Of a stretch of 64,000 bases of DNA, positions 7,331 to 49,679 are shown piece after piece. Under the pieces are notes generated by a model. It saw only the letters and a program-made list of their open reading frames with translations, was not told the origin of the DNA and did no database searches. Made by a program: the position numbers and the translations under genes. The number at the start of each line of letters is the position of its first letter. Position 1 is the first letter of the stretch. The stretch lies in IMG/VR virus record IMGVR_UViG_3300019776_000521, positions 1 to 64,000 of that record; one strand, 5' to 3'. This stretch comes from a virus.

Positions 7331-7345
7331 ACCAACCCTAGAATC

Positions 7346-7861
7346 ATGGAAAAGCTTCAACAAGATCCTCGCACCAAAGAGCAGATCAAGGAAGCGCTGT
7401 ATGCCTTTATCTACTCACCAGTTGAAAGGAGCTTCAATCAGCGCCTTAACAATCTGATTCTAAGAAACGCAGTATCCCTGTGTTACTCCCATCGATCGTT
7501 TTATTACAAGGGAAAGATGTACAGCGTTGATACGGGGCGTCCGCCCCTACTGCGAAACAAGCTTTCCCCTCAGTTCACTACTCAAATGGAAGAGTACCTC
7601 GAAGATCTCAGGCAACTGAAAGAAGAGGAGCTTCCTTATGTAACTGGCTTCATCAACCAGGTACTCAATGCGTCGAATGGCTTTGAAGACTATCTGCATA
7701 TCCTGCCTGAATCAGTCCACAAGCCAATTGAGAAAATGATCAATCAATGCGCCTGTCGTAATAGGCAGCTCAGCGATGAAGCAATTCAACTGCTGAAAGA
7801 AAAAAACAAGGAACCCATCAACATGCTCAAACAAAGGATGTTGATGAACTTGATCACATAA
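7346..7861 (+). CDS. unknown protein between helicase and DNA polymerase
   Basis: 171 residues, mostly alpha-helical, with a charged segment (EEYLEDLRQLKEEELP) around residues 92-107 and a CAC motif near 132. The start is 15 bases after the helicase stop and the stop 8 bases before the polymerase start, so it is part of the replication transcript. No family recognised; N4-like genomes also carry a small gene here. Confidence 0.6.
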   Translation: MEKLQQDPRTKEQIKEALYAFIYSPVERSFNQRLNNLILRNAVSLCYSHRSFYYKGKMYSVDTGRPPLLRNKLSPQFTTQMEEYLEDLRQLKEEELPYVTGFINQVLNASNGFEDYLHILPESVHKPIEKMINQCACRNRQLSDEAIQLLKEKNKEPINMLKQRMLMNLIT

Positions 7862-7869
7862 GGAAATAC

Positions 7870-10506
7870 ATGCGTCACATCATCTTCAAAGAAGCCAATA
7901 CCTACAGCGTTGCTGTCTTGATGAAACCTTCGTGTTTCAACAAGCAAGAGCTTCGACACAACTACATCGACCCCCTGATCAAGCAAGGTGTAGCAGAAGA
8001 AGAGATGATAGCGTTTACGCTCAAGCACGACCAGGACGGCAAGGCACCAGTCAAGTTGATCAAGGAATACTTGGCCAACCTGTTGCCTGCTCTGGACGGC
8101 CTGGGAGTGAAGTTCCTGTACGTCAACGACGCCAGTTATTTCAAGACCATCGCTGGCGTTGTCAAAGCAGACCCACACTTCGGATACATGCTCCCCTGCA
8201 AGATCAAGGGATTTGAGCATATGTCCGTTGTGTTGGGTCTGAACTACCTTCAACTGATCTACAACCCTGCGCTTCAAGCCAAGCTAGACCTGAGCCTAGC
8301 CACCTTAGCTTCAGGTGTAACAGGCAACTATCAAGCGATCGGCACTGGGATCATCCATTCCGCACAGTACCCAGAAAGCCTCCAGGACATCGCACAAGCG
8401 CTGCAATCGCTTTACCAATACCCAGACCTCACTTGCGACATCGAAGGCTTCTCGCTTCGTTTTAACGAAGCTGGGATAGGCACCATTGCCTTTGCATGGG
8501 ATCAGCACAACGGCATTGCCTTTGCGTGTGATTACCACAAAGAAGATGCACAAGCCAATGATTTGAATTGGCACGGCAGATTCGTCAAAAACAACCGTGT
8601 TCGTAAACTGCTGCTTCAGTTCTTCATGGACTACAAGGGTGAACTGACCTTCCACAACGCACCCTACGATGTAAAGGCCATCATCCACGCACTGTGGATG
8701 ACTGACCTCCTCGACACCGTGGGTCTGTTAGAAGGTTTGGACATCATGACCGCCAGGATGAATGACACCAAGATCATCGCCTACCTGGCCACCAACTCCA
8801 CAGCCGGTAACGTGCTGGGATTGAAGCCACTGGCTCATGAGTTTGCAGGTAACTGGGCCAAGGACGACATCAAGGACATTCGCAAGATTCCTCTGAAGGA
8901 ACTGCTCGAATACAACCTGATCGATGCTCTGTCCACTCACTACGTCAAGAGTAAGTTCTGGCCAGTGATGGTCAAGGACAACCAGCTGGACTTGTACCAA
9001 TCGCTCATGCTCCCAAGCCTGAAGCTGATCATGCAGATTGAGTTGACTGGCATGCCCATGAGTAAAGACAGGGTGCAGGAAGTCAAAAACGAGCTGATCC
9101 TTATTCAGGAAACCCACCGAATCCTGATTCAAATCAGCCCTGTTATAGCCGCGTTGAACCTGTTGCTTCAGCACTCGGCCTGGGACAAGGACTACGAGAG
9201 CCGCAAAGCCAAAGCCAAGAATCCTGGGAAAATCTTTCCCAAGAATTTGACTGCATTCGATGACACCCAGTTCAATCCAAACAGTGGTCCTCAACTGCAG
9301 CGTCTGCTCTACGAACAGATGGGCTTGCCTGTTCTGGACTTCACCGACACCAAGCAACCTGCAACTGGTGCTGAAACGATCGAAAAGCTAATCAATCACA
9401 CCAACGAACCTTCCTACAAGAAGCTACTGGAATCACTGATCAGCTATGGCAAGGTCACCAAGATTTTGTCTACGTTCATCCCTGCCTTTGAGCAAGCCAT
9501 TGCCAAAGACAGTAGTGACACTGTGTGGCTCCATGGCAACTTCAATTTGGGTGGCACAGTGTCTGGTCGATTGAGTTCTTCGGACCCCAATCTACAGAAC
9601 ATTCCTGCTGGTTCCATGTATGCCAAGCTCATCAAAGAATGCTTTGTTGGTCCTGAAGGCTGGCTCTTTGCAGGTGCTGACTTCAACTCGCTTGAAGACT
9701 ACATCTCTGCATTGACCACCAAGGATCCCAACAAGCTTGCTGTGTACGAGCGTGGGTTTGATGGCCACTGTCTCCGTGCAGCGTACTACTTTCGTGATCA
9801 GTGTCCCGAGATAGATCTCAACGATCCTGTTTCGGTCAACACAATCAAGAAGAAATACCCTCAGCTACGCCAGGATTCAAAAGGACCAACATTCCTGTTG
9901 ACTTACGGCGGCACTTATCACGGGATGATGAGCAACCTGGGTTGGCCGGAAAACAAATCCAAGGAGATCGAAAAGGGCTACCACGACCTCTACAAGGTGT
10001 CTGACGAGTACGTTCAAAAACGTCTTCATCAAGCAGCCAAAGACGGCTTTGTTGAAGTGGCATTTGGCTTGAGAGTCAGGACTCCCCTGCTTTCTCAAGT
10101 TGTGTTTGGCACTCAGGGTATGCCTTACGAGGCTGCAGCTGAAGGACGCACAGCCGGTAACGCAATGGGCCAGTCATACGGCCTGCTGAACAACCGTGCT
10201 GCAGTTGATTTCATGTGCAAGGTCTGGAAGTCCAAGTATCGATACGACATCAAGCCTATCGCCTTGATCCATGACGCTATATATCTGCTCATCAAAAATG
10301 ACGTAGAGGTTGTCGAGTGGGCCAATCGAGAACTCATCAAGTCGATGCAATGGCAAGAGCTTCCAGAGATCCAACATCCCACAGTAAAACTGGGCGCTGC
10401 TTTGGACATCTTTTGGCCTAGCTGGGCAAATCCAACGACCATTCCCAACAACGCAGATCAAAAAACCATCTTGGAGTTGTGCTCCAGAAAGGAATCAAGC
10501 CTATGA
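7870..10506 (+). CDS. family A DNA polymerase with 3'-5' exonuclease (N4 gp39-like)
   Basis: 878 residues. The exonuclease domain shows Exo I CDIEGFS (D190, E192), Exo II FHNAPYDVKA and Exo III YNLIDALST. The polymerase domain has motif A AGADFNSLED (D604), motif B around RQDSKGPTFLLTYGG and motif C ALIHDAIYLL (H801, D802). Motif A departs from the DYSQIEL of E. coli Pol I, but the aspartate and glutamate are kept, a form I associate with N4-like polymerases. The enzyme replicates the phage genome with the helicase, primase and SSB encoded nearby. Its stop overlaps the next small gene (ATGA). Confidence 0.93.
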   Translation: MRHIIFKEANTYSVAVLMKPSCFNKQELRHNYIDPLIKQGVAEEEMIAFTLKHDQDGKAPVKLIKEYLANLLPALDGLGVKFLYVNDASYFKTIAGVVKADPHFGYMLPCKIKGFEHMSVVLGLNYLQLIYNPALQAKLDLSLATLASGVTGNYQAIGTGIIHSAQYPESLQDIAQALQSLYQYPDLTCDIEGFSLRFNEAGIGTIAFAWDQHNGIAFACDYHKEDAQANDLNWHGRFVKNNRVRKLLLQFFMDYKGELTFHNAPYDVKAIIHALWMTDLLDTVGLLEGLDIMTARMNDTKIIAYLATNSTAGNVLGLKPLAHEFAGNWAKDDIKDIRKIPLKELLEYNLIDALSTHYVKSKFWPVMVKDNQLDLYQSLMLPSLKLIMQIELTGMPMSKDRVQEVKNELILIQETHRILIQISPVIAALNLLLQHSAWDKDYESRKAKAKNPGKIFPKNLTAFDDTQFNPNSGPQLQRLLYEQMGLPVLDFTDTKQPATGAETIEKLINHTNEPSYKKLLESLISYGKVTKILSTFIPAFEQAIAKDSSDTVWLHGNFNLGGTVSGRLSSSDPNLQNIPAGSMYAKLIKECFVGPEGWLFAGADFNSLEDYISALTTKDPNKLAVYERGFDGHCLRAAYYFRDQCPEIDLNDPVSVNTIKKKYPQLRQDSKGPTFLLTYGGTYHGMMSNLGWPENKSKEIEKGYHDLYKVSDEYVQKRLHQAAKDGFVEVAFGLRVRTPLLSQVVFGTQGMPYEAAAEGRTAGNAMGQSYGLLNNRAAVDFMCKVWKSKYRYDIKPIALIHDAIYLLIKNDVEVVEWANRELIKSMQWQELPEIQHPTVKLGAALDIFWPSWANPTTIPNNADQKTILELCSRKESSL

Positions 10507-11855: not shown

Positions 11856-12080
11856 ATGCTGCCTGACACGTTTCTACGTACAGAAGAAGTTCAAGCCCTG
11901 ACCAAGCGGACGGTACGTCCAGCGCAGGTCAGGGTATTGAAAGCAATGGGCATTGAACACAGGGTACGTCCTGATGGCAGCGTTGCTATCCTCAGAGCAC
12001 ACATCTCCAAAGTGTTCGATGGCAATCCTGAAGTCACCCGTCAAACCAAAACAGCTACACCCAACTGGGATGCTATGTAA
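11856..12080 (+). CDS. DUF4224-like protein, candidate recombination directionality factor
   Basis: 74 residues. The sequence FLRTEEVQALTKRTVRPAQV with IEHRVRPDGSVAIL fits the DUF4224 family, short winged-helix-like proteins often encoded immediately upstream of phage tyrosine integrases. Its last base is the first base of the integrase ATG, so translation is coupled. A role as excisionase or integrase cofactor is inferred from this position and not shown by the sequence. Confidence 0.72.
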   Translation: MLPDTFLRTEEVQALTKRTVRPAQVRVLKAMGIEHRVRPDGSVAILRAHISKVFDGNPEVTRQTKTATPNWDAM

Positions 12081-13171
12081 TGCCTCGCAAACGCAGCAAA
12101 GACAACAAGGGTCTACCTGCTCGCTGGAGACACACTCATGGAGGCTACTACTACCAGGTTCCTCCTGGCTTGGAGCACCTATGGGATGGCAAGAAAACCT
12201 TTCGTTTGGGAGCCAAGCTCAATGAAGCCTATCAAGTATGGGCATCACGCCTTGGCAAGGTAGATCAAGCCAAGACGATCGGACAACTGCTTGATCGCTA
12301 TGCCCTTGAAGTTATCCCAGCCAAAGCAGCTGCAAGCCAAAACAGCAACCGCAATCAGCTGCAGATGCTCAGGCGTGTGTTTGGTGAGCACCCTCTCCTT
12401 CCGTTTGTTCCCCAGCTGGTCTACCAGTACGTAGACAAGCGCAGCGTCAAGAAAAAGGATCCAGACACTGGCAAAGTCACTGGTGGAAGGATTGCAGCCC
12501 ATCGTGAAATCGAACTGCTGTCGCATGCGTACACCAAAGCAGTCGAATGGGGCTACATCGATCGCCATCCATTCAAGAACGAGGTAAGGCTCTCTGGTGA
12601 AAAGTCCAGAGACCGCTACATCGAAGATTGGGAAGTCATTGAGATTCTCTCATTGGCTTCACGTAGGAAGGCTGGAAGCGTTTTAATGATCCAAGCCTAC
12701 CTTCGCCTCAAGCTCCTCACTGGAATGGCTCAGGGAGACCTTCTGAGGCTTCAGGAGAGCCATATCAAAGAAGACGGCATCCACAACCAACGGCACAAGA
12801 CTGCAAACAGCACCGGCAAGAAGACCATTTACGAATGGTCACCCGAGCTTCGTGCTGCAGTAGTCCTGGCCAAGAGATCACGACCAGTGCACATCTCACC
12901 TTTTTTGTTCTGCAACAGAGACGGTGAGAGCTATGTGAACGAAGAAACTGGAGAAGCTGCTGGTTGGAAATCCATGTGGCAACGATTCACTCAACGAGTG
13001 ATCAAAGAAACCAAGGTCACTGAGCATTTCACTGAACACGACTTTCGAGCCAAGGTAGCCAGTGATGCTAAGACTCTGGAACACGCAAGATCTCTATTGG
13101 CTCATGCCGATAGCAGAACTACTGACAAGGCTTACAGACGAAAGGCTGAGAGGGTTTCTCCTCTTCGATAA
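12080..13171 (+). CDS. int: tyrosine site-specific integrase lacking the first catalytic Arg
   Basis: 363 residues. The N-terminal region (about 1-70) resembles an arm-binding domain with HTHGGYYYQVPPG; a core-binding helical domain follows, then the catalytic domain. Box II is intact (TEHDFRAKVA, with His-x-x-Arg), LLAHADSRTT gives the second His, and AYRRK supplies the tyrosine nucleophile. The box I motif normally TGxRxxE/D reads TGMAQGDLLRL, so alanine stands where the first catalytic arginine is expected. The gene would insert and excise the phage at an att site; the substitution may reduce or abolish strand cleavage unless another arginine compensates. Integrases are rare in N4-like phages. 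Confidence 0.85.
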   Translation: MPRKRSKDNKGLPARWRHTHGGYYYQVPPGLEHLWDGKKTFRLGAKLNEAYQVWASRLGKVDQAKTIGQLLDRYALEVIPAKAAASQNSNRNQLQMLRRVFGEHPLLPFVPQLVYQYVDKRSVKKKDPDTGKVTGGRIAAHREIELLSHAYTKAVEWGYIDRHPFKNEVRLSGEKSRDRYIEDWEVIEILSLASRRKAGSVLMIQAYLRLKLLTGMAQGDLLRLQESHIKEDGIHNQRHKTANSTGKKTIYEWSPELRAAVVLAKRSRPVHISPFLFCNRDGESYVNEETGEAAGWKSMWQRFTQRVIKETKVTEHFTEHDFRAKVASDAKTLEHARSLLAHADSRTTDKAYRRKAERVSPLR

Positions 13172-26702: not shown

Positions 26703-26732
26703 TGAAGTAAGTCAGCTGTAAGGTTGACTTGC

Positions 26733-26779
26733 AGAGCCAAAGCTTCCAGGTTCCCGTGGGAGGCATTGGCTCTTTTTTT
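26733..26779 (+). terminator. second hairpin with U-tract just before nrdJ
   Basis: An outer stem AGAGCCAA / TTGGCTCT (26733-26740 with 26766-26773) encloses a smaller TCCC / GGGA stem and is followed by seven T. It lies 29 bases before the nrdJ start, so it may act as an attenuator or as a leader terminator. Confidence 0.6.
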
Positions 26780-26807
26780 GTCCCCAGGAACCCTTGAAAG
26801 AGCCTCT

Positions 26808-28748
26808 ATGCCATTTAAAAATCCCCTGCCTACCCAACTCCAGGAATACATCCACAAGAGCCGCTACGCCCGTTGGATCGACTCTAAACAGCGTCGAGAA
26901 ACCTGGGAAGAAACCGTCCAGCGATACGTGGACTACTTCGCAAACAAGTTCGAGCATTACCCAGCTGCTCAGATCTACGAAAGCATTCTCAATCTGAAAA
27001 CCATGCCTTCGATGCGAGCACTCATGACTGCAGGCCCTGCATTGGAACGCGATCCAATGGCTGGCTTCAACTGCACCTTTGTGGCAGTTGACGATCAACG
27101 GGCCTTTGATGAAATCCTCTACATTCTTATGTGTGGCAGCGGTGTCGGCTTTAGCGTAGAACGCCAGTTCATAGCCAAGCTGCCGATCGTTGGAGCCAAA
27201 GCAGTTCAAGATTCCGAAGGCTTGCTCAGCATTGAAAGCGCTGACTCGCTGACACCGATCAATGAAACGATCGTCGTGCGCGACAGCAAAGGTGGCTGGG
27301 CTGGAGCCTTCAAAGAACTTATTGCATGGCTCTACAAAGGCTTCATTCCCAAGTGGGATGTCAGCCTGGTGCGTCCTGCTGGAGCCAAGCTGAAAGTCTT
27401 TGGCGGACGAGCCAGTGGCCCACAGCCACTGATTGATCTTTTCGCTTTCACTGTCGAGACCTTCAAAGCAGCTGCTGGTCGCAAGCTCACCAGCATTGAA
27501 TGCCATGATCTGGTTTGCAAGGTTGCAGACATTGTGGTTGTGGGTGGTGTGCGTCGCAGTGCACTGATCTCGCTGAGCAACCTCAGTGACGATCGTATGC
27601 GTGGAGCCAAGAACGGCCAATGGTGGGCAGTGGAACCTCAGCGTGCCCTGGCCAACAACTCAGCTGCTTACACCGAACGGCCGTCGATGGAACTGTTCAT
27701 GAAGGAATGGCTCTCGTTGATCGAGTCCAAGTCCGGTGAACGTGGAATCTTCAATCGTGAAGCCGCAATCAAGAAGGCAGTCGAAAGCGGACGCCGTGAT
27801 GCAAGCAAAGTTGTAGGCGTCAATCCTTGCGCCGAAATCACGCTGCGCTCAGCAGGCGTATGCAACCTATCTGAAGTGGTGATCCGCAAAGACGACACCA
27901 TTGAAGCCCTGATCGAAAAGGTTCAGGTGGCCACCATCATCGGCACCTATCAATCGATGCTGACCGACTTCCGCTATGTGCGTGACATCTGGAAACAGAA
28001 CCAACAGGAAGAACGTCTGCTTGGTGTATCGCTAACCGGCATCATGGATCACCCAGTTCTCAGCCAAACAAATGACCTGGCTGAATTCTGGTTGAAGTGC
28101 ATGAAGGCTGCAGCCATCGAAACCAACAAAGAATGGGCCGAAAAACTTGGCATCAATCAATCGGTTGCAATCACTACCGTAAAACCAAGTGGCACAGTGT
28201 CTCAGCTGGTGGACTCAGCATCAGGAATCCATCCTCGTTACTCGGAGTACTACATACGTACTGTCCGAGCCGACAAGAAAGATCCCTTGGCTCAGCTGAT
28301 GCGCCAGCAAGGCTTCCCGGTTGAAGACTGTGCAATGAAACCAGGCAGCACTGACATCTTCAGCTTTCCCGTGCAAGGACCAAGCGCTGCGGTATTCCGC
28401 AACGATCGGTCTGCACTTGAACAGCTGGAGCACTACCTAATGGTGCAAACCTTCTGGTCTGAGCACAACGTCTCCATCACGGTCTACGTCAAGGACCATG
28501 AATGGATGGGTGTTGGTGATTGGGTCTACCAGAACTTTGACAAGCTGGCCGGTGTGAGCTTCCTGCCTCACAGCGATCACAGCTACAAGCAAGCGCCTTA
28601 CCAGGAGTGCAGCAAGGAAGAGTACGAAGCCCTGCTTGCACGCATGCCCAATTTTGATTGGGAAGAGCTGGCCATTTTTGAGCAAGACGACTCCACCGTC
28701 AACACCAAAGAGTTGGCGTGCACTGCTGGCCAGTGTGAATTGATCTAA
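26808..28748 (+). CDS. nrdJ: adenosylcobalamin-dependent ribonucleoside-triphosphate reductase, class II
   Basis: 646 residues from the ATG at 26808 (MPFKNPLPTQ); a longer frame to 26724 would run through the terminator. Active-site pieces of monomeric class II enzymes are in place: C89 in GFNCTF, C341 and E343 in NPCAEI, C352 11 residues later, and the C-terminal redox pair C638/C643 (ACTAGQCELI). TTVKPSGTVSQLVD and GIHPRYSEYY are the nucleotide-binding loops. It reduces NTPs to dNTPs without oxygen or iron, using vitamin B12 coenzyme that the host must supply. The length is slightly below Lactobacillus leichmannii RTPR. Confidence 0.93.
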   Translation: MPFKNPLPTQLQEYIHKSRYARWIDSKQRRETWEETVQRYVDYFANKFEHYPAAQIYESILNLKTMPSMRALMTAGPALERDPMAGFNCTFVAVDDQRAFDEILYILMCGSGVGFSVERQFIAKLPIVGAKAVQDSEGLLSIESADSLTPINETIVVRDSKGGWAGAFKELIAWLYKGFIPKWDVSLVRPAGAKLKVFGGRASGPQPLIDLFAFTVETFKAAAGRKLTSIECHDLVCKVADIVVVGGVRRSALISLSNLSDDRMRGAKNGQWWAVEPQRALANNSAAYTERPSMELFMKEWLSLIESKSGERGIFNREAAIKKAVESGRRDASKVVGVNPCAEITLRSAGVCNLSEVVIRKDDTIEALIEKVQVATIIGTYQSMLTDFRYVRDIWKQNQQEERLLGVSLTGIMDHPVLSQTNDLAEFWLKCMKAAAIETNKEWAEKLGINQSVAITTVKPSGTVSQLVDSASGIHPRYSEYYIRTVRADKKDPLAQLMRQQGFPVEDCAMKPGSTDIFSFPVQGPSAAVFRNDRSALEQLEHYLMVQTFWSEHNVSITVYVKDHEWMGVGDWVYQNFDKLAGVSFLPHSDHSYKQAPYQECSKEEYEALLARMPNFDWEELAIFEQDDSTVNTKELACTAGQCELI

Positions 28749-37450: not shown

Positions 37451-40400
37451 TTACTTCACAATTGCCATCGCAGTGTGCACCGTAGCCAAGTTGTCCAGTG
37501 CACCAAAGTACTGGAAAGCTCCAGAGTGCAATGGATTGTTTCCAATGTGCTGCGTAAACGAACTATCCAGAACGATGGGTCCGAGTTCCATGTAATGATT
37601 CAGTGCAATGGCTGACAGTACACGGGCCGGGTTCTCCCTGGCCAGCTTCAGCAGCACCCGTTGAATGCGTAGGAAGTACTTGGTAAATGGCGTCAGGCCC
37701 ATGTCGTCCGTGTACTGCAAACCACGGTGCATCGGGATGTCGTAGTTCACAAAGGCATCCGACGCTTCCTGAATTGCAGCTTCACGGCTCAACGGGTTCG
37801 TGCCCCTGCTCACCAGGTGCTGGTACAGCGTGTACCGAGCCACGAAGTCCGACAGCTGTGTAATGCGGCTCAGAGTCTGGTACATGTTGGTGTCATGCGT
37901 CATGTACACCGCCCTGCCTGCAGCACGAATCTTGGGGTTCAGCCTGCTGGTGAACTTCTCCGTCTTTCTCACAAACTCACTCTTGTACGAGTAGATGTTT
38001 TCCTCAGCAGCAAGATCTTCCACGATCGTAGGCATCAGCCCTGCTTCAATCAGTTCCTTGACCGGATTCCTAGCAATCGCGTCTTTCAAGCGAACGATTT
38101 CATCCTTAATTTCCTTTTCCTTACCCAGTCCGTAATCGACCTCCAGCATCGTCTGCAGATCCGCCAAACGCTGGCTATCTCTCTGGTATGCCGTAGCACC
38201 TTTCAACGCCACCAGGTGATGCTGCAATACGTCCTTCAACGACACGCCTGACATGGCAAGCAGCGACAAGTTCGACCAGATGTTCCCAAGCATCACAAAG
38301 CCAGTCTTGACCACAATGATGTCTTTGGTCTCGGCTACCAATTCCTGCCATGCACGTTCGCCCCTGGTGATCACTACGGCTGCTCTCTTGGCGTAATCCT
38401 CTGCGTCAGCTGCAGACAAGCCATGCCGCATGCCTGCGTAGTTTGCAAGCACTGTCTGCACCACATACACAAACAAGCCTTCCAGCTTGTTTCGTGCATC
38501 AGGATCCTTCTGGAACATCGACGCCAAAGTCAGCTTGCGATACCCAAACATGATGTCCAGTGAATCGCTGCGCACCTTCATGCCGTCCCTACCCCACACT
38601 GCCCTGATGTCTTTCTTCGTAGCATCAGGCAGTAAATCCCAGATCGCACGCATCTCAGGATCAGTGCTCCGATCGCCAACTTCAACGTAAGAATCCTTGC
38701 GGGTTGCGTACTCCAGTTCGTACTGTTCACGCAATACAGTGACTGCTTTTTTGTTCTGTTCCCGACTGGTCTCCTTGTCGTAGATCGAACCAGCAATCAC
38801 ACCGATCAGATTCTCAAACCTGTTGTCCCGCTCAAGCAGGTTGTCCTTGGTGGACTCAGCCATCATGTAGCGCCAGTTCACGATCGCACCTGTCTCGTTG
38901 TAGACAGGAATCATGTGGTTTTCTCTTTCAGCTGACAGATCCCTACGCGGATCACCCATACCTTGCATAGCAGCCAGCTTTTCGTTGGTGATGGTCGCTT
39001 GCATGCTTGCATTCTCAAGCCCGTTCAGCGTGTTCACGTTTACGTAGCCGCTGTGCTTTTTGCTGCCCCTAGACTTCATGCTGGACAAGGAAAACGCACC
39101 CGAAAGCCAAGGAGACAAGCCACCGTCCCTGAGCACGTAGATTCGCTTAGTTTCGGTATCCGGGTCAGCACGATCGTTAGACACCAGTGCGCCTGCCGAG
39201 TAGCCCTGGTTCACAAGCTCCTTGCCTTCTGCCTCGGTAGCAATCTTGATCGCTGTATGCGGGTTTAGGATCTCCGGCGTGTAGCCATGGATCATCAGCG
39301 CAGGATTGCCTTTGAACAACCGTTGTAGCGACTCCTCTTCCAGCTGCTTGTGCAGCTTCAACAGGAACTCAACACCGTTGCCATTGTTATCAGTTCGACT
39401 GTTTTCAGTCCTGAAAACTTCTTTGGCTTGGCTCAAGTGGTCACCTGCTGTGTACTTCAAGGCGTACAAAGAGATCAATGCTGCAATCACAGGCTCTGCC
39501 TGTTTTGCTTCAGCCTCAGAGATCTGCCGCTGGTACTGAGTGTTGGCCATCCTGGAGATCAAGTGTGCATTGAGCATCAGCACAGGAATTCTGGCTCGTC
39601 CAGTTGCTTTGAAGTAACCCAAACCATTGATCTGTTCGATGTACTTGTCTTTGTATTTAGAGGTCAGCTGAGACTCAAAGTTTTCAATGGCTTTGTCTAC
39701 TGCCTTGTAATCCCCAACCAGCTTCTCCAAATCAGCAACGCTGTAGTGATTCAGCAAGTTGTGCAAACCAGTTCTTAGAAACACAGCAGACACTGCAGCT
39801 TTGGCTTCCTTGCTCATTGCTTTGCCATTCTGAAACACGCTCAGCACAAGCTTCGAGTGCTGCGTGATGATGTTCTTGCGCTCACCTTCATGGCGCTTGG
39901 TTTCACGCAGCAGAGCATTGAACTTGTCCAACGGTCCCTTCAGTTCATTGAGCAAACTTGCTGCAATGCCTTGCCTGCCTTTGAACTGCTGATCACGAAG
40001 AATTTTCAATCCGTCAATCACTTGCTCCACCCGATCATTGGCAATGGTTCGAGCTATGCCCCCTGCTGCTTGAACAAACGCATTGCCGTTGTTACGAACA
40101 AATGACGAACCAGCAAGGTCACCTGCTTTTTCCCGGATGCCATCTGCCAGCGCTTTGACGCCTCTTTCAACTGGTTCAAGAATGCTGCGCTCTGTTGCAC
40201 GCTTCTTGATGAGCACTCGCTTTTTGGCTTCGATGTCCACCAGCTGGCCAACCAACGCTTCCAGCTTGGCGTCAGCGTTCTGACCAGCGTAGGTGTGCGT
40301 GAACTTCTCATTGAAGAAATTCAAAATGCGCTCAAAGATGCTTTCGAGCTTCTCGGTGAACGTCATGTCCTGGGCTGCTTTGCGTGAAGCAACCTTGGTT

Positions 40401-43400
40401 GCTCTTTTCAACAGCGTATTGAACTTTTCGCTGGCCAGGCCCAGGGCTGCAAATCGAGCCAGGTAATCCGAGCGATCGCCGTTGTTGCTCTCCAGCTTGA
40501 ACACAAAGTCGTAGTCTTCCTGGGACGCAAAATCCGATGGCTTGAGCGTATTGCGCATTTCAAGGTACAGATCAGCCAGCTGCTTGTAGGCAATCTTGGT
40601 TTGGGACTCGTTGCCGTTCAACGCTGCCCGCACGGTGGCTTCCACCTGCTGCATGGCAAAGTCTTCCTGTGCACTACCTGCAAACCCAGACGCCACAATC
40701 GATGATGCAAAGGGAGCGTTGCCTGTTTCCATGGCTTTGAGCCATACCGCCAAGGGATTGCCTGCCTCGGTCTTGCGCATCTGCTCTGCAAACGCACCAA
40801 ACGGGCCGTGGAGCTTCTCTACGATGCCACCCAGTAGGTTGGCCAGGTGCTCCTGGAACGAAGGCTCTACGGAGCCATTGGCCAAGGCGTTGTGGATGTC
40901 CAGGGTCGTGTACTTGTCGATCTGCTCGACGGTCTCCTGAGCAAGGTTCAGGTCGGCGTTGCTTGTCTTCTTTGCTTGAGCCGCTTCCGCAAACAATCCC
41001 GACACATTTGCAACCAGCACAGCCATGCCGTTGTTGAGATTCTCGTCAGGCTTTTTGAACAGCAGTTGCGTCAGCGTAGCGATGAACTTCTTCATGCCGG
41101 TGATCAGCGAGGTGCTGCCGGTCTTGGACTCCATGGTGATCTTGCTCAGCACATCACGCTGCAGGCCCAGGTTGGTCATGCCCCAAGCCACGAACTCTTG
41201 AACGTTGGCCAAAGCTGCCGTGTAGTCGTTCAGTCCGTTTTGCTTTGCATACTCTTGAGCCTTGACCCGCAGAGCTTCAAGCTCAGCCACCAGTGCTGCT
41301 GCTTCGCCGGTTGGCTTGTCGATCACCCGTGCAATCGCTGCGTGCACCAGTTCATGCAGCAATGTTTCGGCTGTCAAACCAGAGTTCTGAAACTCTGGAC
41401 TGAGTACGTAGATTTCCTCCTGGCCATTCTTGACGACGTACCACCCACGGGAATTGGTTGTGGGCTTTTCCAGAACCATGCTTTCCGCTGTCTCGGATGT
41501 CACAAACTTGATCTTCAAGTCAGGGCTAACCACCCGACTGACCAAAGCCAGGATCTTGCGATTGATTGCATTCATCCGTCCAGGTGCACCAAGCAGTGCA
41601 ATCACTTGGGACGCCGAGGCATTCGGATTGGCTTTGAAAAACCTGACCAGATCGCCATCACTTTCAATCTTTGGCGTACCGATTGGTCCAAACAGACTAT
41701 CGGCAGTAGCAACAGGCTTCTCGGTTGCAGGAGCAGGCTTTTCGGAAACACTCATGCCCAGGGCTTCAGAGATGATCACAAGAGCTTCTTGTTCCTTGGC
41801 AGAAAGCCCCTCTTTCAACGCAGACTGCATTGCTGCAGCATCACTACGATCGGCTTCGGTGACTTCGTAATTGCCACCTTCGAGTGCGTACTGATCAACC
41901 GAACCCATCTGGCTCAATGCTTCAAGACGCACACTGTCTGCGCTGAAAGCCGTGCTTGTTGCGTTTTGCAGCATGTCGCTCAGCACCGTGTCAGGGCTCA
42001 TCTCGTTCTCACCTGCAAACTTGTTCAACGCTTGCGTGAGATTCTCGACAACCTGAACAGGAAGATCCTTCTGAGCCAACAGCTCAGACAAGCCAACAAC
42101 CGTGCGAGACAACATGTTCGCCATCTCCGTTGCCGGAGAGTAGTTCAGCAGTGCACTCCAAGTAGCTTGATTCAGGTTCTGTGCTGTCTGACTAAATCCG
42201 CCCAAACCAGATCCATGAGCATCATGGATGTTTAGCACTTCATTGCCATCTGCAGCGTTGTGTGAGATTGCAGAGTCCAGCGAATGCGTGGACATCACGA
42301 CCATTGCTACGCCAGGATTGCTTTCGATCGTTTCAAACGCAGTAGCTTCGACCGATGATTGCTCAACGTAGCCGCCTTTCTTCTTGCTCCAAACCTTGGT
42401 TCCTTTGATTGCAGAACCAAACTTGACATTGCTTTTGAACGTGCTGCGAGTGCTGAGCTTGCGGCTTGATTTCGATGCAAACAGGCCAGCACGCAAGGAA
42501 CCACTTTCCTTGGACATGAGCGTGTGCATCACAGGAGCAAGCTTGCTCACTCGTTTCTTGAGTTCTTCCTGCTGCTTGAGTGTCAGATCGTGAATCGGAC
42601 GGTTCTTGCTATCTACTGCAATTTCACCAGACGCCACCAACTCAGCCAGGTACGCATCACGCAAGCCCATGTACGCTGCGTTGTACAGCTCGAATGAGAA
42701 CTGAGCACTCTTGTTCAGTGCATCGCGTTTGCTGATGAAATTGCCAAAGTCAGCGGACATTGTTTCCGACACTGCTTTGCCCAGCGTGTTCTTGAAGCTG
42801 TTCTTTAATGCCTTGATCTGATCTGAATCAAACTCGTAAGCAAGCAGCTTTTCCACAGACATCAATGAAAGCTTGGCGCCATCACCACCCCTCAGCAATA
42901 CATTGATGTTGTTGATAGTGGCTCGAATATCTGCTTTGCCTGCAGCCACATCTTCCATGCTGGAGTAGATGGATTCAATAAAGCCATCGGCCATGCTGTC
43001 TACAGCCGAACCAACAGAGGAGCCAAAGATCATCGCCGTCAAAGGCGTCTTGATGATGTTTCGACGCTTCTTGAGAATCTCAGGTGTCTCAAGAGTCAGA
43101 TTCCCGGTAAACGCATACACAGCGTTCAAAGTTGCACCAATCTTGCTGTCTTTCAGCAGCATCTTCTGCACGGCATTCGTCATGTGCAATGCAGTGATCT
43201 CGTATAAATCTTTGGCACCAGGCTTACCACGCCAAACGTTGTAGTTGGTGTTGGGATTGCTTTTCTCGAAGAACCCACCACGATTGAGCAAGCCAAACAA
43301 ATCCTTCACAGACTTTGCTGCACCAAGCAGGATATGGCTCAGCATGGGGCCATTGGTTACCCCGTCTACCTCGCCCATCATCTGAACGGAAAAGCTGTTC

Positions 43401-46400
43401 TTGCCATCAAGCTGCGCTTGTGCTTCCGTAGCCAAAGCCATCAGTGCATCCAGCGAATGAAAATTCATTCCGCCTTTCTTGACTCCAGCAAGCAGGACTT
43501 TTCCTTCTTCTGAAGTGATGCCACCTTCAAACACTGTCTTGCGCAACACTGCTACAGCGGCTTTGATCTCCGGCTGATTGACGTAGGATTCATAAGCAGC
43601 CAACGAAGTCTTGTTGGCTTGCTTGTCTGTCTTGACTCCCAGACCTTCAAGAACCCTGAGCCGAAAGTTGTCCATCTGATCGGCATTGCCCATATCGACC
43701 ATCGTGGTCCATGCGTTGCGAAATAGCATGAAGCGATGGATCTTGCTGGTCTGCGGATTGATGACGTTGGTGGCAATACCAACTCGTTGCTGCTTCCACA
43801 CCGAATGCTCAAAATACATTGGAGCTTCGATGTCAGCCATGCTTTTGACAAACTCCATGAACCTATCCAGTTCACGAAGCAGCCCATCGTTCTTTGCCTG
43901 CAAACCTGGCTTGTTGACTGCATGAGTTTTGGTGTCGGAAATCTCAACGACACCTGCAATGCCTTGAAGCACATCGTCACCAAGCTGCGTGATCAGCTGC
44001 CACATGTCTTGCCGCACATAGTTGGCTTCTGCATTCTTGGCAGCAACAATCTTTGCAAGCTTCTCCGGTACGTTCTGGTTGGTGTTGCGTGTCTTTTTCT
44101 GCACAAACGGAACTGGCTCAAGGCTGGGTTCCTTCAAACCAGACTCTACTGAAAACAGCTTGTCGAGCACTCCTTGCGAACCAATGGATGCCTTGACGAT
44201 CCGCTCTGCATCAGCAGGCAAAGTGCTCTGCGCATTCCTGGCAAGTTTGACGAAATGAAATTCTGCGTTCGTGTTCGTGCTTTCCTTGTTCGTCAACGCA
44301 GCCATGGTCTCACCTGAGACTGTTGACCTTTCAAGCAGTCCTAGATCCATCATCAACTTCCATGCATGTGCACCCAGGGAAGCTTCCAGGTCAGGCATCA
44401 GATTGACTGGGGCATCCTTCGACACTTTGAAACCAAGCGCCTGTACAACTGCTTGGCCAAGCGAGTTGCGCACCAGGTTTTCCCTTACGCCTACGTTGCC
44501 GAGCACCATGCGTTCAGCTTGCGAGACGCTGACAGTTTCATCCCGATCGAGAATCGCGTTGATGTCTTCGTCAGTGTTGTACAGATTCTTGGATGCAGCT
44601 TCTGCAACCCAGCTGAACACTGCATAGCTGATTGCAGTCTTCACATTCTGATCAACATCTAGCTTTCCATCGTTCTCTTGGATCAGGTACTGCATCATGT
44701 CTTCGTACCGGAACTCTTTGGTACGAGCACTCAGATTCTTTTGAATCAACCCTTGCCATTGCTGGTTCAGTTCTTGAAACAGCTGCAGCACTTCTTGCTG
44801 CTTGCCGCTGAGAGACTTGATGCCAAGGAAATCCAGAACATTCTGAGCACCCTGGCTCAGGAAGTTTTTCACCTTCACTAAAGGCCGCTCAGTCAGATCG
44901 CCTTCACGACTGGCTTGCTGAGTGAAGAAGTCTGCAATGAGGTTACGAAGAGGAAACGATGTCCCCTCCGTGGACTTTTCCTGAAGCGTCGTAACAGCAC
45001 CAGGCTGCGTAGACAGTGCACTTGCGACCTCTTCAGAAACTGGAACAACCTCTGAAGGGGTCGTGCTAGTCTGCTCAGTAGACTGCAGTTGACCTTGATT
45101 TGTCTCAGGAGACGCAACAGTTGTCCTAGTAGAGCCGGAGGCTCCTACAGACGCAGCAGGCTCACCCGAAACACTTTCTACGGTTTGTCCAGCGGCGGAT
45201 TCAGTTGCTGCGGTTGCTGGTACTGAGGGGTTGACGGCTCCTCCTTCAACTCCTCCGGTCGGCTGACTCGTACCTGCTTCAGTCGAGGGCGCAGTTTCTG
45301 TGCGATTCGGACTGGCTTGTAATCCTTCGAGTGTTTGCGATACGTTCGAGACATTACTGACTCCATTGGAAATAGGTTGGGCAAACTTCAGCCCGTAGGC
45401 TGCTCGAAGCTCTGTTGCCGCCTTGGTCAGTGCATCCGATTCAATCTGAATGTTATCAACAATTTTGGTGCTGTTCCTGACAATATCCAGGCCACCATTT
45501 TGCTGACGTTCTTTTTGACTGGGCCATTTCCCAGTTTCAATCGACCAGCTTCCATTGCCATCACTAACAATGCGCCGCTCCTGCCCGTCTTTCTCAAACA
45601 GGGCTTTTGCTTCAGCAGCCACTTGTGCTTTCTGCTGATGGTCGCTGACAAAGTTGTCCAGCAGCTGCAACTGCGCAGTAGCGGCTTTTGAGTTGTTTGC
45701 TGCCAGTGCAGTCGTGACATTGGCTCGGTATTGCTGAATACCGATGTTCCCTTTGCCGCCATAGAAAACCTCCTTCGAGACCTTATCCATGGTCTTGAGT
45801 TGGTTCTCTGCTTGCCGTGCTTGCGTGAATGCCCGCAGGTAGCCCCGCTGCGGGTCCGTCAGGCCGTTTGTCGTGTCATTGGCAAGCGACGCAGCCAGGT
45901 TGGTATCCAGGCGCTCTGGCGTGGCCATAGACAGGTTGATGATGCTGTCCGCTGCAGCCTGTGAAGCTACCGGATCAGCAGCAGTGATCTTTGCAGCCTC
46001 AGCTTCTACATCCAGCTCCTTGGATTGGTTTTCCTGATTGAAGTTATTCAGCACCTCCTGAGCTGATGCAATCTGCTCATCAAGCCGAGAGATCTGCTTT
46101 TGCAACCTTGGACCAGCGTCTGTCTCCTTGGCCAGGGTTGCAAGTTCAGCTTCCAGAGCATCGACGGTAGGCTGATCTCCAGCTTCTCTGGCTTGAACCA
46201 GTTGAGCCATGTAGCCAGCCACAGCTTCAGGCGAGATAGAAGCGTAGTTTTCTTCTGCTTTTTGTTTCTGCTCAAGCAGATCAGACACGATGCCCGATGC
46301 CTGCTCAAACTTTGCTTGTTTCAGTTCGGGCGTAGCGGTCGGCAATTGGCTGTGGCCATACAAAGCCGATACAGCCTGATCTGGGGCGTAGGACGGGCTT

Positions 46401-47647
46401 TTGGGATCCAGGAAGGTAGTGACATCACCTGAGACAATCGCAGCTTGTAGGGCTTCTGCTTTCGTTGCGTCGGCTACTTTCTTTTCAAATTTAAGCAGAG
46501 ACATTTCGGATGCAGACTTCAAAGTCTGAATACCACCACCCATGATTCCGCCCATGAAGGCACCCTGACCAGCAGCAGCACCAACGCCATCAAAAAGCTC
46601 TTGTGCTGGCTTAATCTCCTTGACTGCAGAATTTCCAAAATAGCGTCCGCTACCCTCTTCTATTCCTTCCTGCCCAGCTTCTCCAACAAATGCTTTGGGT
46701 ACAGCAACAAAACCACCTGCTTTCTTGCCAATCAGAGCTTTCTCAATTGCAGTACCACCAGGAAGTGCAGAAGAAAACAACGAAACTGCTCCTGCTTTAA
46801 GCGTAGCTTCTCCGGCCAACTGCGATGCAATAGCTTGCTTGGCTTGTTGAGGACCAAGGCTTTCAGCCAAAGCTACATACTCAGGGTTTTGATCCCAAAC
46901 AGCATCAGGCAACGACATCATTCGCTGCATCGTGTCTGAACCAACATCGACACCTTGCAACACAGCGCCCGTACCAACAGCAGCAGCTGTGCCACTCTTT
47001 TCCACAGCAATCTGTCCGGCTTTGGTTGCTGCAACTTTAGGCAGTGTTTTGGCTGTAGCAGCAGCAGCTAGTTCAGCACCACGACCTACTTTGCTCATCA
47101 CTCCCAGTTGCGCTGCTTGTTGAGCCAAAAACTCAGGAATGCTTCCTGGGTCTTTTGCAGCTTCCCAGAATGCAGCACCAAACTCTGCAGCAACTTGCCC
47201 AGCTACACCTGTTACGCCATCACCTAAAGCTTCCCGTGCTGCTTTGCCCGCTTTGCCAGCAACCACTGCTTTTTCTTGATTTTTGGCTTGAGCAAAAGCT
47301 GATTTCAGTTTTTCTCGTTCATCAGACATTTTGCTGATGTCTTGTGTTTCAGGCCCGTACCAATCACCAGTGGTAGCTTTGTCGTAAACCATCGCTGGCA
47401 ACTTGGCCAGTCCATCGATACCTTGAACAGCTGACAAAGCCAAGTCTTTTGTGTAGTCCCCCCACGACCTACCTTCATCAATGGCTTGATCTCTGGCTAC
47501 TTGCGCAGTGTTTTGCGCCAACGCTTGCCGGTAAGTTTCCAAGCCAGCAAGCTTCTCTTGACGAGCTTGAAGAATTTGATCAATCTTTTCAGGATTCGGC
47601 GCACCATACTTTTGAAGCAAATACTGATCAACATTGAAGGTGGCCAT
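37451..47647 (-). CDS. giant virion RNA polymerase (N4 vRNAP-like) with embedded zincin motif
   Basis: 3398 residues from the ATG at 47647 (MATFNVDQYL); a longer frame to 47863 crosses a terminator. Single-subunit RNA polymerase motifs stand at motif A GEVDGVTNGP (D1428), motif B RRNIIKTPLTAMIFGSS (R1529, K1533, F1541) and motif C NIHDAHG (H1808, D1809). R-x3-K-x7-(Y/F)-G equals T7 RNAP R627-K631-Y639 but with Phe for Tyr. A-to-B and B-to-C distances (105, 276) are near those I recall for N4 vRNAP. LLHELVHAA (H2098, H2102) plus E2151 forms a zincin-like site after the polymerase. Size, position and neighbours fit N4 gp50, ejected with the DNA for early transcription. Confidence 0.85.
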   Translation of the reverse strand: MATFNVDQYLLQKYGAPNPEKIDQILQARQEKLAGLETYRQALAQNTAQVARDQAIDEGRSWGDYTKDLALSAVQGIDGLAKLPAMVYDKATTGDWYGPETQDISKMSDEREKLKSAFAQAKNQEKAVVAGKAGKAAREALGDGVTGVAGQVAAEFGAAFWEAAKDPGSIPEFLAQQAAQLGVMSKVGRGAELAAAATAKTLPKVAATKAGQIAVEKSGTAAAVGTGAVLQGVDVGSDTMQRMMSLPDAVWDQNPEYVALAESLGPQQAKQAIASQLAGEATLKAGAVSLFSSALPGGTAIEKALIGKKAGGFVAVPKAFVGEAGQEGIEEGSGRYFGNSAVKEIKPAQELFDGVGAAAGQGAFMGGIMGGGIQTLKSASEMSLLKFEKKVADATKAEALQAAIVSGDVTTFLDPKSPSYAPDQAVSALYGHSQLPTATPELKQAKFEQASGIVSDLLEQKQKAEENYASISPEAVAGYMAQLVQAREAGDQPTVDALEAELATLAKETDAGPRLQKQISRLDEQIASAQEVLNNFNQENQSKELDVEAEAAKITAADPVASQAAADSIINLSMATPERLDTNLAASLANDTTNGLTDPQRGYLRAFTQARQAENQLKTMDKVSKEVFYGGKGNIGIQQYRANVTTALAANNSKAATAQLQLLDNFVSDHQQKAQVAAEAKALFEKDGQERRIVSDGNGSWSIETGKWPSQKERQQNGGLDIVRNSTKIVDNIQIESDALTKAATELRAAYGLKFAQPISNGVSNVSNVSQTLEGLQASPNRTETAPSTEAGTSQPTGGVEGGAVNPSVPATAATESAAGQTVESVSGEPAASVGASGSTRTTVASPETNQGQLQSTEQTSTTPSEVVPVSEEVASALSTQPGAVTTLQEKSTEGTSFPLRNLIADFFTQQASREGDLTERPLVKVKNFLSQGAQNVLDFLGIKSLSGKQQEVLQLFQELNQQWQGLIQKNLSARTKEFRYEDMMQYLIQENDGKLDVDQNVKTAISYAVFSWVAEAASKNLYNTDEDINAILDRDETVSVSQAERMVLGNVGVRENLVRNSLGQAVVQALGFKVSKDAPVNLMPDLEASLGAHAWKLMMDLGLLERSTVSGETMAALTNKESTNTNAEFHFVKLARNAQSTLPADAERIVKASIGSQGVLDKLFSVESGLKEPSLEPVPFVQKKTRNTNQNVPEKLAKIVAAKNAEANYVRQDMWQLITQLGDDVLQGIAGVVEISDTKTHAVNKPGLQAKNDGLLRELDRFMEFVKSMADIEAPMYFEHSVWKQQRVGIATNVINPQTSKIHRFMLFRNAWTTMVDMGNADQMDNFRLRVLEGLGVKTDKQANKTSLAAYESYVNQPEIKAAVAVLRKTVFEGGITSEEGKVLLAGVKKGGMNFHSLDALMALATEAQAQLDGKNSFSVQMMGEVDGVTNGPMLSHILLGAAKSVKDLFGLLNRGGFFEKSNPNTNYNVWRGKPGAKDLYEITALHMTNAVQKMLLKDSKIGATLNAVYAFTGNLTLETPEILKKRRNIIKTPLTAMIFGSSVGSAVDSMADGFIESIYSSMEDVAAGKADIRATINNINVLLRGGDGAKLSLMSVEKLLAYEFDSDQIKALKNSFKNTLGKAVSETMSADFGNFISKRDALNKSAQFSFELYNAAYMGLRDAYLAELVASGEIAVDSKNRPIHDLTLKQQEELKKRVSKLAPVMHTLMSKESGSLRAGLFASKSSRKLSTRSTFKSNVKFGSAIKGTKVWSKKKGGYVEQSSVEATAFETIESNPGVAMVVMSTHSLDSAISHNAADGNEVLNIHDAHGSGLGGFSQTAQNLNQATWSALLNYSPATEMANMLSRTVVGLSELLAQKDLPVQVVENLTQALNKFAGENEMSPDTVLSDMLQNATSTAFSADSVRLEALSQMGSVDQYALEGGNYEVTEADRSDAAAMQSALKEGLSAKEQEALVIISEALGMSVSEKPAPATEKPVATADSLFGPIGTPKIESDGDLVRFFKANPNASASQVIALLGAPGRMNAINRKILALVSRVVSPDLKIKFVTSETAESMVLEKPTTNSRGWYVVKNGQEEIYVLSPEFQNSGLTAETLLHELVHAAIARVIDKPTGEAAALVAELEALRVKAQEYAKQNGLNDYTAALANVQEFVAWGMTNLGLQRDVLSKITMESKTGSTSLITGMKKFIATLTQLLFKKPDENLNNGMAVLVANVSGLFAEAAQAKKTSNADLNLAQETVEQIDKYTTLDIHNALANGSVEPSFQEHLANLLGGIVEKLHGPFGAFAEQMRKTEAGNPLAVWLKAMETGNAPFASSIVASGFAGSAQEDFAMQQVEATVRAALNGNESQTKIAYKQLADLYLEMRNTLKPSDFASQEDYDFVFKLESNNGDRSDYLARFAALGLASEKFNTLLKRATKVASRKAAQDMTFTEKLESIFERILNFFNEKFTHTYAGQNADAKLEALVGQLVDIEAKKRVLIKKRATERSILEPVERGVKALADGIREKAGDLAGSSFVRNNGNAFVQAAGGIARTIANDRVEQVIDGLKILRDQQFKGRQGIAASLLNELKGPLDKFNALLRETKRHEGERKNIITQHSKLVLSVFQNGKAMSKEAKAAVSAVFLRTGLHNLLNHYSVADLEKLVGDYKAVDKAIENFESQLTSKYKDKYIEQINGLGYFKATGRARIPVLMLNAHLISRMANTQYQRQISEAEAKQAEPVIAALISLYALKYTAGDHLSQAKEVFRTENSRTDNNGNGVEFLLKLHKQLEEESLQRLFKGNPALMIHGYTPEILNPHTAIKIATEAEGKELVNQGYSAGALVSNDRADPDTETKRIYVLRDGGLSPWLSGAFSLSSMKSRGSKKHSGYVNVNTLNGLENASMQATITNEKLAAMQGMGDPRRDLSAERENHMIPVYNETGAIVNWRYMMAESTKDNLLERDNRFENLIGVIAGSIYDKETSREQNKKAVTVLREQYELEYATRKDSYVEVGDRSTDPEMRAIWDLLPDATKKDIRAVWGRDGMKVRSDSLDIMFGYRKLTLASMFQKDPDARNKLEGLFVYVVQTVLANYAGMRHGLSAADAEDYAKRAAVVITRGERAWQELVAETKDIIVVKTGFVMLGNIWSNLSLLAMSGVSLKDVLQHHLVALKGATAYQRDSQRLADLQTMLEVDYGLGKEKEIKDEIVRLKDAIARNPVKELIEAGLMPTIVEDLAAEENIYSYKSEFVRKTEKFTSRLNPKIRAAGRAVYMTHDTNMYQTLSRITQLSDFVARYTLYQHLVSRGTNPLSREAAIQEASDAFVNYDIPMHRGLQYTDDMGLTPFTKYFLRIQRVLLKLARENPARVLSAIALNHYMELGPIVLDSSFTQHIGNNPLHSGAFQYFGALDNLATVHTAMAIVK

Positions 47648-47681
47648 ATAGTCTTTCGGTCTGAAGGAAGTGGTAGCTATT

Positions 47682-47712
47682 CTAAAGAAAAAGCCGGGAG
47701 TTACCCGGCTTT
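47682..47712 (-). terminator. terminator after the thermonuclease-fused gene
   Basis: AAAGCCGGG / CCCGGCTTT with a five-base loop (47690-47712); on the minus strand it is followed by TTTTTCTTTAG. It lies between 47715-49679 and the giant polymerase gene, so the latter may depend on read-through or its own promoter. Confidence 0.75.
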
Positions 47713-47714
47713 GA

Positions 47715-49679
47715 TTATTGCCTTGCTCTAAACACTGGTGGATAAACAGGATTGGGGTCTTTCCACAAGCCACGCTTTTCTTTACGTGCAGTGTTTTCTG
47801 CAATGTTGAGATCAACGTTCCTGAGAGTTTGCTGCGCAAACGCTTTGTACACCCAAGCTGCACCTTGCTCTACCATGGCATGGTCAAGACCTTTGCCTTC
47901 AATCTCAACCTGACAAATAGATCTACCGGCGTACTTGCCATCAGGACGAACAATTCTGATGTTCACTTCTTTGTTGAGAATCAGCTCTTCCAGACGTTTC
48001 TTCGATTCCTCTCCAAACGGCTGACCATTTTTGTTGTACTGCTTCTTTGCAGTCTCCGGTGCGTCGATCGTATCTATCCTGCAGTTGATTCCGTTTTCAG
48101 AAGAAAACGTGTCTCCATCAGCAACGTAGCTAACTACTGCTTTTACCCCGGTGCCTTTTGGAATAGCACCAGGAGCAGCTTTTACTGCGCTGACTGGTTG
48201 CTTCCATTTGACATCTTTGGGTAGCTCTATCGGATCAGTTTTAGCTACCGGAGAACCATTGACAGGATTGAGAGCAAAGCCAGTCGAATCAGCTACGGCT
48301 GGCTTTGATTTTGACGAAGTAGAAAAACCGCTGTTGAAGCTAACAGCAGCTGGAGCCTCAGTTACCTCTTTTTTTTTTTCCGGTGCGCTTGTTTCAGCTT
48401 TTGCACTGGAGATAGCTCCGTACCTCTGAAATTCTTCGATCAGCGGATCAACGGCCAGAGTCTGAGGAACATCAATCAGACCACCTCGTCCAACAATCCT
48501 CTGTGTTGGTCCACTAACCTTTGGTTTAGGCAGCAGACTTTCAATCTTCTTATCAAAGCTGTCAGCGTAACCTTTGCTACCAAACCAGTTGGTATCAACT
48601 GAAGAAAGCAAAGCCGATTTCACAACACTAAGCGGAACAGGTACGTTGACTGTAATCGGCTTTCCATCTTCACCAATGGTAGTCCGAGTGATACCATTTT
48701 TGGCAAGATTGGAAATTCTTTCCATCAGGTATGCACGACCGTTGCTGTCGTCTTTGCCACCAATTCCGTTAGTCTTTGCAATGGTAGCAAGCTCTACAAG
48801 ACTGTCTGGAGTCAGCAGCCCACCTTTGTACACGTTGTCTTGTAACGCAAGATCTAGCTTCTTGACGTTTTGAGCAGCAGCACGTTCACGCTCTGCTCGG
48901 TCAGCAGTCAATCTTGAAGCGTTTGTTGAAGCTTCTGAAGCACTGATGCGGGCTTGTATTTCTTTTCGAACCAAGTCGGCATTGTTAACTGTGTTTTGAA
49001 GACTTTGGTTATCAAGACCAGCTTTGGTAACAGCAAGAGGTCGCAGCAAAGCACGTTGTGATTCTTCTGTGCCTCGACGAGTTTCTTCTGCTACTCGGCG
49101 CTTCTCTTCTTCAGTATCAAAACCAAACCTTGTTGAAGCACGATCTCGTTCTGTCAGAGTCTGCTGCCGCGTATCGATCGTCTTTGCCAGGTTCACGGCT
49201 TCCCGCAGATCAGGTCGAGCAGCCAGCATCTCGCCTGCACGCTTTGGATCCTGCAAAGCCATGAGGTTGATCGCACGAACGTCTGCTTCCTGAGCAGCAT
49301 CCAGCATCGTGTTCTTGTACGTGATGCCTTGAACGTCACGCTGCTGGAGCGTATTAACGCGCCCATCACGAAGAGCATTCACTGCAGCCCGATCAATCAC
49401 AGCGCCATTTGCAGCAACAGCTTGATCCAGTGCACCAGACCTGTTCAAAACGTTGAACTGGTCCACGTTTTCAGCTTGATAAATCTTGCTCAACGCATCT
49501 TGCGTAGCAGCTTGATCTTGTCGTTTCCACAAAGCCTGATCGAAAGTATCGCTTTCTTTGAGAGTGCTTTTCAGGCTGTCAAACGCTCCAGCAAAAGCCT
49601 GTTGCGCATAAGCAAGCGGACGACTGGCATCTGCCAGGGAAGGTCCGGTAACGGTACGCCAAGTGATGGGGGTAGCCAT
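47715..49679 (-). CDS. virion protein with C-terminal SNase (thermonuclease) domain
   Basis: 654 residues. The first 500 are alpha-helical, polar and coiled-coil rich (RQQTLTERDRAS, EEEKRRVAEETRRG), as in phage internal proteins. Residues about 505-640 are a staphylococcal nuclease fold: VVSYVADGDTF, CRIDTIDAPET and KYAGRSICQV keep the Asp ligands and the Arg-Glu-Arg catalytic residues. It lies in the position of N4 internal-protein genes, suggesting it is packaged and ejected, where the nuclease could cut host DNA or RNA. Stop and start are next to neighbours, overlapping the 49679 gene by one base. Confidence 0.82.
   Translation of the reverse strand: MATPITWRTVTGPSLADASRPLAYAQQAFAGAFDSLKSTLKESDTFDQALWKRQDQAATQDALSKIYQAENVDQFNVLNRSGALDQAVAANGAVIDRAAVNALRDGRVNTLQQRDVQGITYKNTMLDAAQEADVRAINLMALQDPKRAGEMLAARPDLREAVNLAKTIDTRQQTLTERDRASTRFGFDTEEEKRRVAEETRRGTEESQRALLRPLAVTKAGLDNQSLQNTVNNADLVRKEIQARISASEASTNASRLTADRAERERAAAQNVKKLDLALQDNVYKGGLLTPDSLVELATIAKTNGIGGKDDSNGRAYLMERISNLAKNGITRTTIGEDGKPITVNVPVPLSVVKSALLSSVDTNWFGSKGYADSFDKKIESLLPKPKVSGPTQRIVGRGGLIDVPQTLAVDPLIEEFQRYGAISSAKAETSAPEKKKEVTEAPAAVSFNSGFSTSSKSKPAVADSTGFALNPVNGSPVAKTDPIELPKDVKWKQPVSAVKAAPGAIPKGTGVKAVVSYVADGDTFSSENGINCRIDTIDAPETAKKQYNKNGQPFGEESKKRLEELILNKEVNIRIVRPDGKYAGRSICQVEIEGKGLDHAMVEQGAAWVYKAFAQQTLRNVDLNIAENTARKEKRGLWKDPNPVYPPVFRARQ

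Follow-up and report, generated by a model that had tools for sequence, protein, structure and literature searches.

The window analyzed here is a stretch of 64,000 nucleotides (positions 1 to 64,000 of IMG/VR record IMGVR_UViG_3300019776_000521, the whole record being 73,555 bases long). Its minus strand carries, at 37451–47647, a gene for a virion RNA polymerase (vRNAP) of 3398 aa that starts at the ATG at 47647 (MATFNVDQY...). The open reading frame was listed as 37451–47863, with an upstream GTG at 47863 that adds 72 residues. When read from the ATG, however, the protein lacks cysteine altogether, and both its length and its Cys-free state are those of the LUZ7, LIT1 and PEV2 vRNAPs (PMC3715699); the DEV enzyme is also 3398 aa long (PMC10925440). 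The match of the ORF to PHROG 2206 (virion RNA polymerase; E 0) spans the protein from end to end (residues 6–3391), and tblastn with the window vRNAP recovered >400 phage records, mostly Schitoviridae, at identities <60%. The gene is thus what the original prediction took it to be, a virion RNA polymerase, and belongs to the Schitoviridae (N4 gp50) family. HELVH at residue 2098 (41342–41356, minus strand) is the HExxH motif known from the C-terminal C1 domain of the N4 enzyme (PMC12633501). By homology and from the absence of cysteine, the protein would be packaged in the virion and ejected. In one of the related records (Klebsiella phage K17alpha62, OY979417), the annotated spikes, endolysin and holin pseudogenes do not fit the underlying DNA: where the vRNAP matches, a single open reading frame runs through all 6.9 kb. 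The annotation coordinates look shifted.

Motif B of the polymerase (43025–43063, minus strand) reads R1529-NII-K1533-TPLTAMI-F1541-G, and F1541 is encoded by TTT at 43027–43025, as had been predicted. In a phmmer search against PDB chains, the segment 'rrniiktpltamifgs' was aligned with 'krgiaknpltitiygs' of the N4 mini-vRNAP (E ∼4e-18). Since this alignment is gap-free, F1541 faces N4 Y678 and, as proposed, stands opposite T7 Y639. The catalytic D1428 of motif A (EVDGVTNG; 43364–43366, minus strand) and H1808-D1809 of motif C (NIHDA; 42221–42226, minus strand; from sequence reading and alignment) are intact, in agreement with the earlier reading, and in a 40-sequence alignment their columns are invariant or nearly so. 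The Gly columns of motif A are also invariant. Judged from its spacing, G1433 at the end of that motif (TNG; 43349–43351, minus strand; 'FDGSCSG' in T7) is probably the equivalent of T7 G542. The window vRNAP has the motifs A, B and C of its family with the catalytic Asp, Arg and Lys. It also has the aromatic residue that ends motif B and may be Tyr or Phe; the presence of Tyr is not by itself a mark of the family.

The polymerase domain (residues 880–1970, the equivalent of the N4 mini-vRNAP; 41738–45010, minus strand) was modelled with AlphaFold2 from 40 input sequences (pLDDT 90.6, pTM 0.87). When the model was superimposed on PDB 2po4 with VIA-align, 947 residues were aligned (Z 30.1, rmsd 4.1). 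The best fold matches were N4 mini-vRNAP structures (Z 24–30), followed by T7 and mitochondrial RNA polymerases (Z ∼16–21). As predicted by the model, the window vRNAP has the mini-vRNAP fold.

The original prediction implied that the Phe residue is exceptional, but its rarity was not borne out. Among 22 hand-picked vRNAPs, Phe was found in the window enzyme and in those of Ka4 (Luzseptimavirus), Littlefix and DL64 (Litunavirus), read directly in the sequences of the last three, and Tyr was found in N4 and the remaining sampled groups. When a wider IMG/VR set was thinned to <97% identity (169 non-redundant vRNAPs), 54 enzymes had Phe, 115 had Tyr and no third residue was observed. With further loci added (190 non-redundant vRNAPs) the numbers rose to 59 Phe, Litunavirus, Luzseptimavirus and Littlefixvirus among them, and 131 Tyr. 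This proportion is not an unbiased frequency, because the window and sequences related to it served as queries for part of the sampling. In the 169 set the Phe codon was TTT in 30 cases and TTC in 24; the use of both codons, and the presence of Phe in many relatives, rules out a sequencing accident. Phe as a rare residue was therefore rejected: it is widespread in the N4-like vRNAPs surveyed, an outcome that the original prediction had itself named as refuting. Moreover, the term "Y678F substitution" already appears in a 2010 supplementary legend (Ceyssens et al.) on phages LUZ7, LIT1 and PEV2, so that Phe at this site is not unique to the window. What that study says of it runs counter to what one would expect from the T7 mutant. 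In the open-access literature we found neither experimental follow-up nor biochemistry on any Phe vRNAP. A single-sequence locus search of viral contigs returned no relatives, but alignment-based searches did recover them; one scan of prokaryote genome contigs yielded a single relative, with Tyr and His.

In T7 RNA polymerase, Y639 and H784 have been described as touching the ribose 2′-OH and G542 as giving it space (PMC11617373, PMC13286181), although H784 has also been assigned another role, base-pair checking in the minor groove (PMC4551944). The likely H784 equivalent in the window vRNAP is H1788 (42284–42286, minus strand). A comparison of the vRNAP profile with T7 RNA polymerase by hhalign gave no usable alignment. 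The equivalence rests instead on the H-x2-D pattern shared by 'STHSLDSAISH' in the vRNAP and 'FVHSQDGSHLR' in T7, on the position before motif C (20 residues upstream in the window vRNAP, 27 in T7), on the fold match, and on the phage's own RNAPII, whose segment NITHSVDAYILR (in an enzyme with Tyr at motif B) bridges those of vRNAP and T7.

The columns ∼500 positions on each side of F1541 were scanned for co-occurrence with Phe. In the 169 set, His occupied the H784 column in 54/54 Phe enzymes vs. 19/115 Tyr enzymes. Otherwise this column holds other residues in the N4-type enzymes, and Gln in many further Tyr enzymes. H1788 was the sole listed residue present in 100% of the Phe enzymes, divergent lineages included, yet in only 17% of those with Tyr. 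S1792, F1618, T1829, A1538 and T1534 were rejected as compensators, because they track the superclade that holds most Phe enzymes and are absent in divergent Phe lineages. The newly fetched loci added five Phe enzymes; His was present in four of these and Ile in the fifth. By itself this small set is not strong support for the coupling. In the combined set, His was present in 58 of the 59 Phe enzymes vs. 25 of the 131 Tyr enzymes (Fisher 1.4e-27). The one exception (L377) reads NFLA, lacking the usual Gly after Phe, and has Ile at the H784 column; its motif A is EIDGISNG (S-N-G). That 25 Tyr enzymes also keep His shows that His does not need Phe.

A FastTree phylogeny was made without the F/Y column. 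On it ∼10 F/Y changes are needed: one for a large clade of 65 sequences in which Phe prevails, plus two gains that stand alone and seven reversals. The trees are midpoint-rooted and approximate, and the reversal count differs between the two of them. Inside the Phe clade ∼5 losses of His are inferred, all to Gln, and every Gln sequence there bears Tyr. A Pagel-type test supported the coupling before the sets were combined (p 7e-7) and afterwards (likelihood ratio 31.4, p 2.5e-6), with the caveat that correlated-evolution tests tend to inflate significance when independent events are few. The coupling persisted without the N4-type clade (p 8e-6) and inside the Phe clade (p 9e-5), and was weak outside it (p 0.04). 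These sequence patterns suggest that Phe is tolerated almost only where the second sugar-contacting residue, His, is kept, and they lend support to one option raised by the original prediction, namely that the enzyme compensates elsewhere. Of its other two options, the use of dNTPs or modified nucleotides is plausible on chemical grounds from the T7 Y639F analogy, and nothing in this analysis favoured a different starting nucleotide. We found no report of the Phe-His rule, of the breadth of the Phe group or of repeated Phe/Tyr changes in the open-access literature, and the breadth of the group, the repeated changes and the His dependence appear to be previously unreported.

Like the window enzyme, the vRNAPs of LUZ7, LIT1, PEV2 and DEV (Migulavirinae) and of Littlefix combine Phe with the His equivalent to H784. 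Identity with the window vRNAP over the polymerase core is, however, only ∼40%, and the window sits in a separate, mostly uncultured branch whose closest members (L024, L038 and L039) are 62–70% identical to it. The window enzyme is thus a divergent member of an already noted Phe-bearing vRNAP type. With N4 vRNAP (mini-vRNAP, PDB 2po4 and 3c2p) it shares the fold, the R-x3-K-x7-(Y/F)-G signature, the giant virion protein and the C-terminal HExxH motif, but N4 has Tyr678, no His in the H784 column ('TIGTGDG') and FDG rather than HDA in motif C. The same combination (motif C FDG, no His in that column, strict Tyr) was observed in N4-type vRNAPs (e.g., L023 and many of L266–L345), which, as far as active-site residues tell, are a second distinct type in the family.

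The heterodimeric N4-like RNAPII of the phage is encoded further along the record (69013–71219; L346, i.e., record 62001–73555, positions 7013–7918 and 8158–9219). In its large subunit, motif B keeps Tyr and the position of T7 H784 keeps His. With Phe and His in the vRNAP, one phage thus has both pocket types. Upstream of these genes (69013 on) lies a cluster of hairpins with perfect stems and 3-nt TCC or TCT loops, at record positions 67304, 67539, 68172 and 68599 (to 68611). The 73.6-kb record holds 11 hairpins with such loops, four of them within 1.3 kb. N4 vRNAP early promoters have a GGA template loop with a central G; the candidate hairpins resemble them but differ from N4 in the stem base at −8. 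An integrase-like protein is encoded at 12080–13171 (plus strand; PHROG 1, E 2.6e-27) in a phage that is otherwise N4-like and presumably lytic.

The reading that we consider somewhat more probable than all others together, by analogy with T7, is that the window vRNAP is an ordinary enzyme of a large Schitoviridae subgroup in which nature has arrived at the T7 Y639F state. It would still synthesize RNA, because His would do most of the reading of the 2′-OH and NTPs far exceed dNTPs. Phe at the ribose-discriminating site, with the H784 equivalent and the motif-A Gly kept, is common to both, although T7 Y639F is an engineered single mutant of a distant enzyme and the window enzyme is natural, with further changes near motif B. 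The pocket would be of the Y639F single-mutant type and not of the Y639F/H784A type: the Tyr hydroxyl is absent, and His1788 and the motif-A Gly are retained. In the absence of that hydroxyl, contact of His1788 with the ribose 2′-OH would carry most of the RNA specificity, and cellular NTPs, far above dNTPs, would provide the remainder. The enzyme would then transcribe early genes into RNA, as N4 vRNAP does; loss of His would be poorly tolerated in the Phe background; and in vitro the pocket would be more permissive than that of a Tyr enzyme for 2′-deoxy and 2′-fluoro substrates. Relaxed sugar selectivity in vitro is accordingly a likely property, whereas nothing in this analysis supports the use of dNTPs in vivo. 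The catalytic roles of these residues, and any phenotype, we infer by analogy with T7.

A lineage effect, in which a near-neutral Phe was fixed in a His-bearing ancestor and the coupling reflects inheritance and no compensation, is a possible, if doubtful, explanation. One superclade holds 52 of the 54 Phe enzymes, one base substitution is enough to turn Tyr into Phe, the tests used are known to overstate significance with few independent events, and Tyr-to-Phe mutants of the T7 and SP6 enzymes remain active with natural NTPs (PMC13286181). The coupling, however, is present both inside and outside the superclade, four loci outside it (L092, L258, L350 and L351) have Phe with His, and within it no Phe lineage has lost His, whereas Tyr lineages changed to Gln ∼5 times.

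It is improbable that Phe acts on translocation, initiation or the motif-B loop switch and not on sugar choice. T7 Y639 also functions in translocation (PMC11617373), promoter binding converts the motif B loop of N4 into the O helix (PMC4496689), and motif B differs elsewhere as well (mostly T/K at 1534 vs. N671; A at 1538 vs. I/T675), but unlike H1788 no neighbouring motif-B difference is common to all Phe lineages.

Least probable of all is that Phe was selected for the use of dNTPs or 2′-modified nucleotides in infection, e.g., in mixed RNA/DNA transcripts or primers, even though T7 Y639F takes 2′-modified nucleotides (PMC4551944, PMC4538805, PMC13286181). A nucleotide-pool gene of the same genome, for ribonucleotide reductase (26724–28748, plus strand; PHROG 367, E 9e-182), fits such use, but His is kept in nearly all Phe enzymes, which argues for selection for ribose recognition, the RNAPII of the same phage keeps Tyr and His, and several Phe-to-Tyr reversals are inferred. 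In N4, furthermore, vRNAP works right after ejection, before phage nucleotide enzymes can be translated. It is just as improbable that a large natural group of vRNAPs has evolved a sugar pocket for both NTPs and dNTPs, with deoxy or modified nucleotides in the early transcripts or primers made as the genome enters the cell and His1788 setting the balance.

These data (i) show that the window vRNAP shares its active-site combination, a motif-B Phe paired with His in the H784 column, with the natural Phe vRNAPs of the Migulavirinae kind; and (ii) suggest that a natural Y639F-like pocket that still makes RNA would account for this combination. Y639F is the standard engineered mutation for the production of 2′-modified RNA, and natural Phe vRNAPs are a source of possibly permissive enzymes. 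A long-lived natural Phe family, with Tyr relatives and covarying His and Gln, offers a ready-made experiment on ribose choice in single-subunit RNA polymerases.
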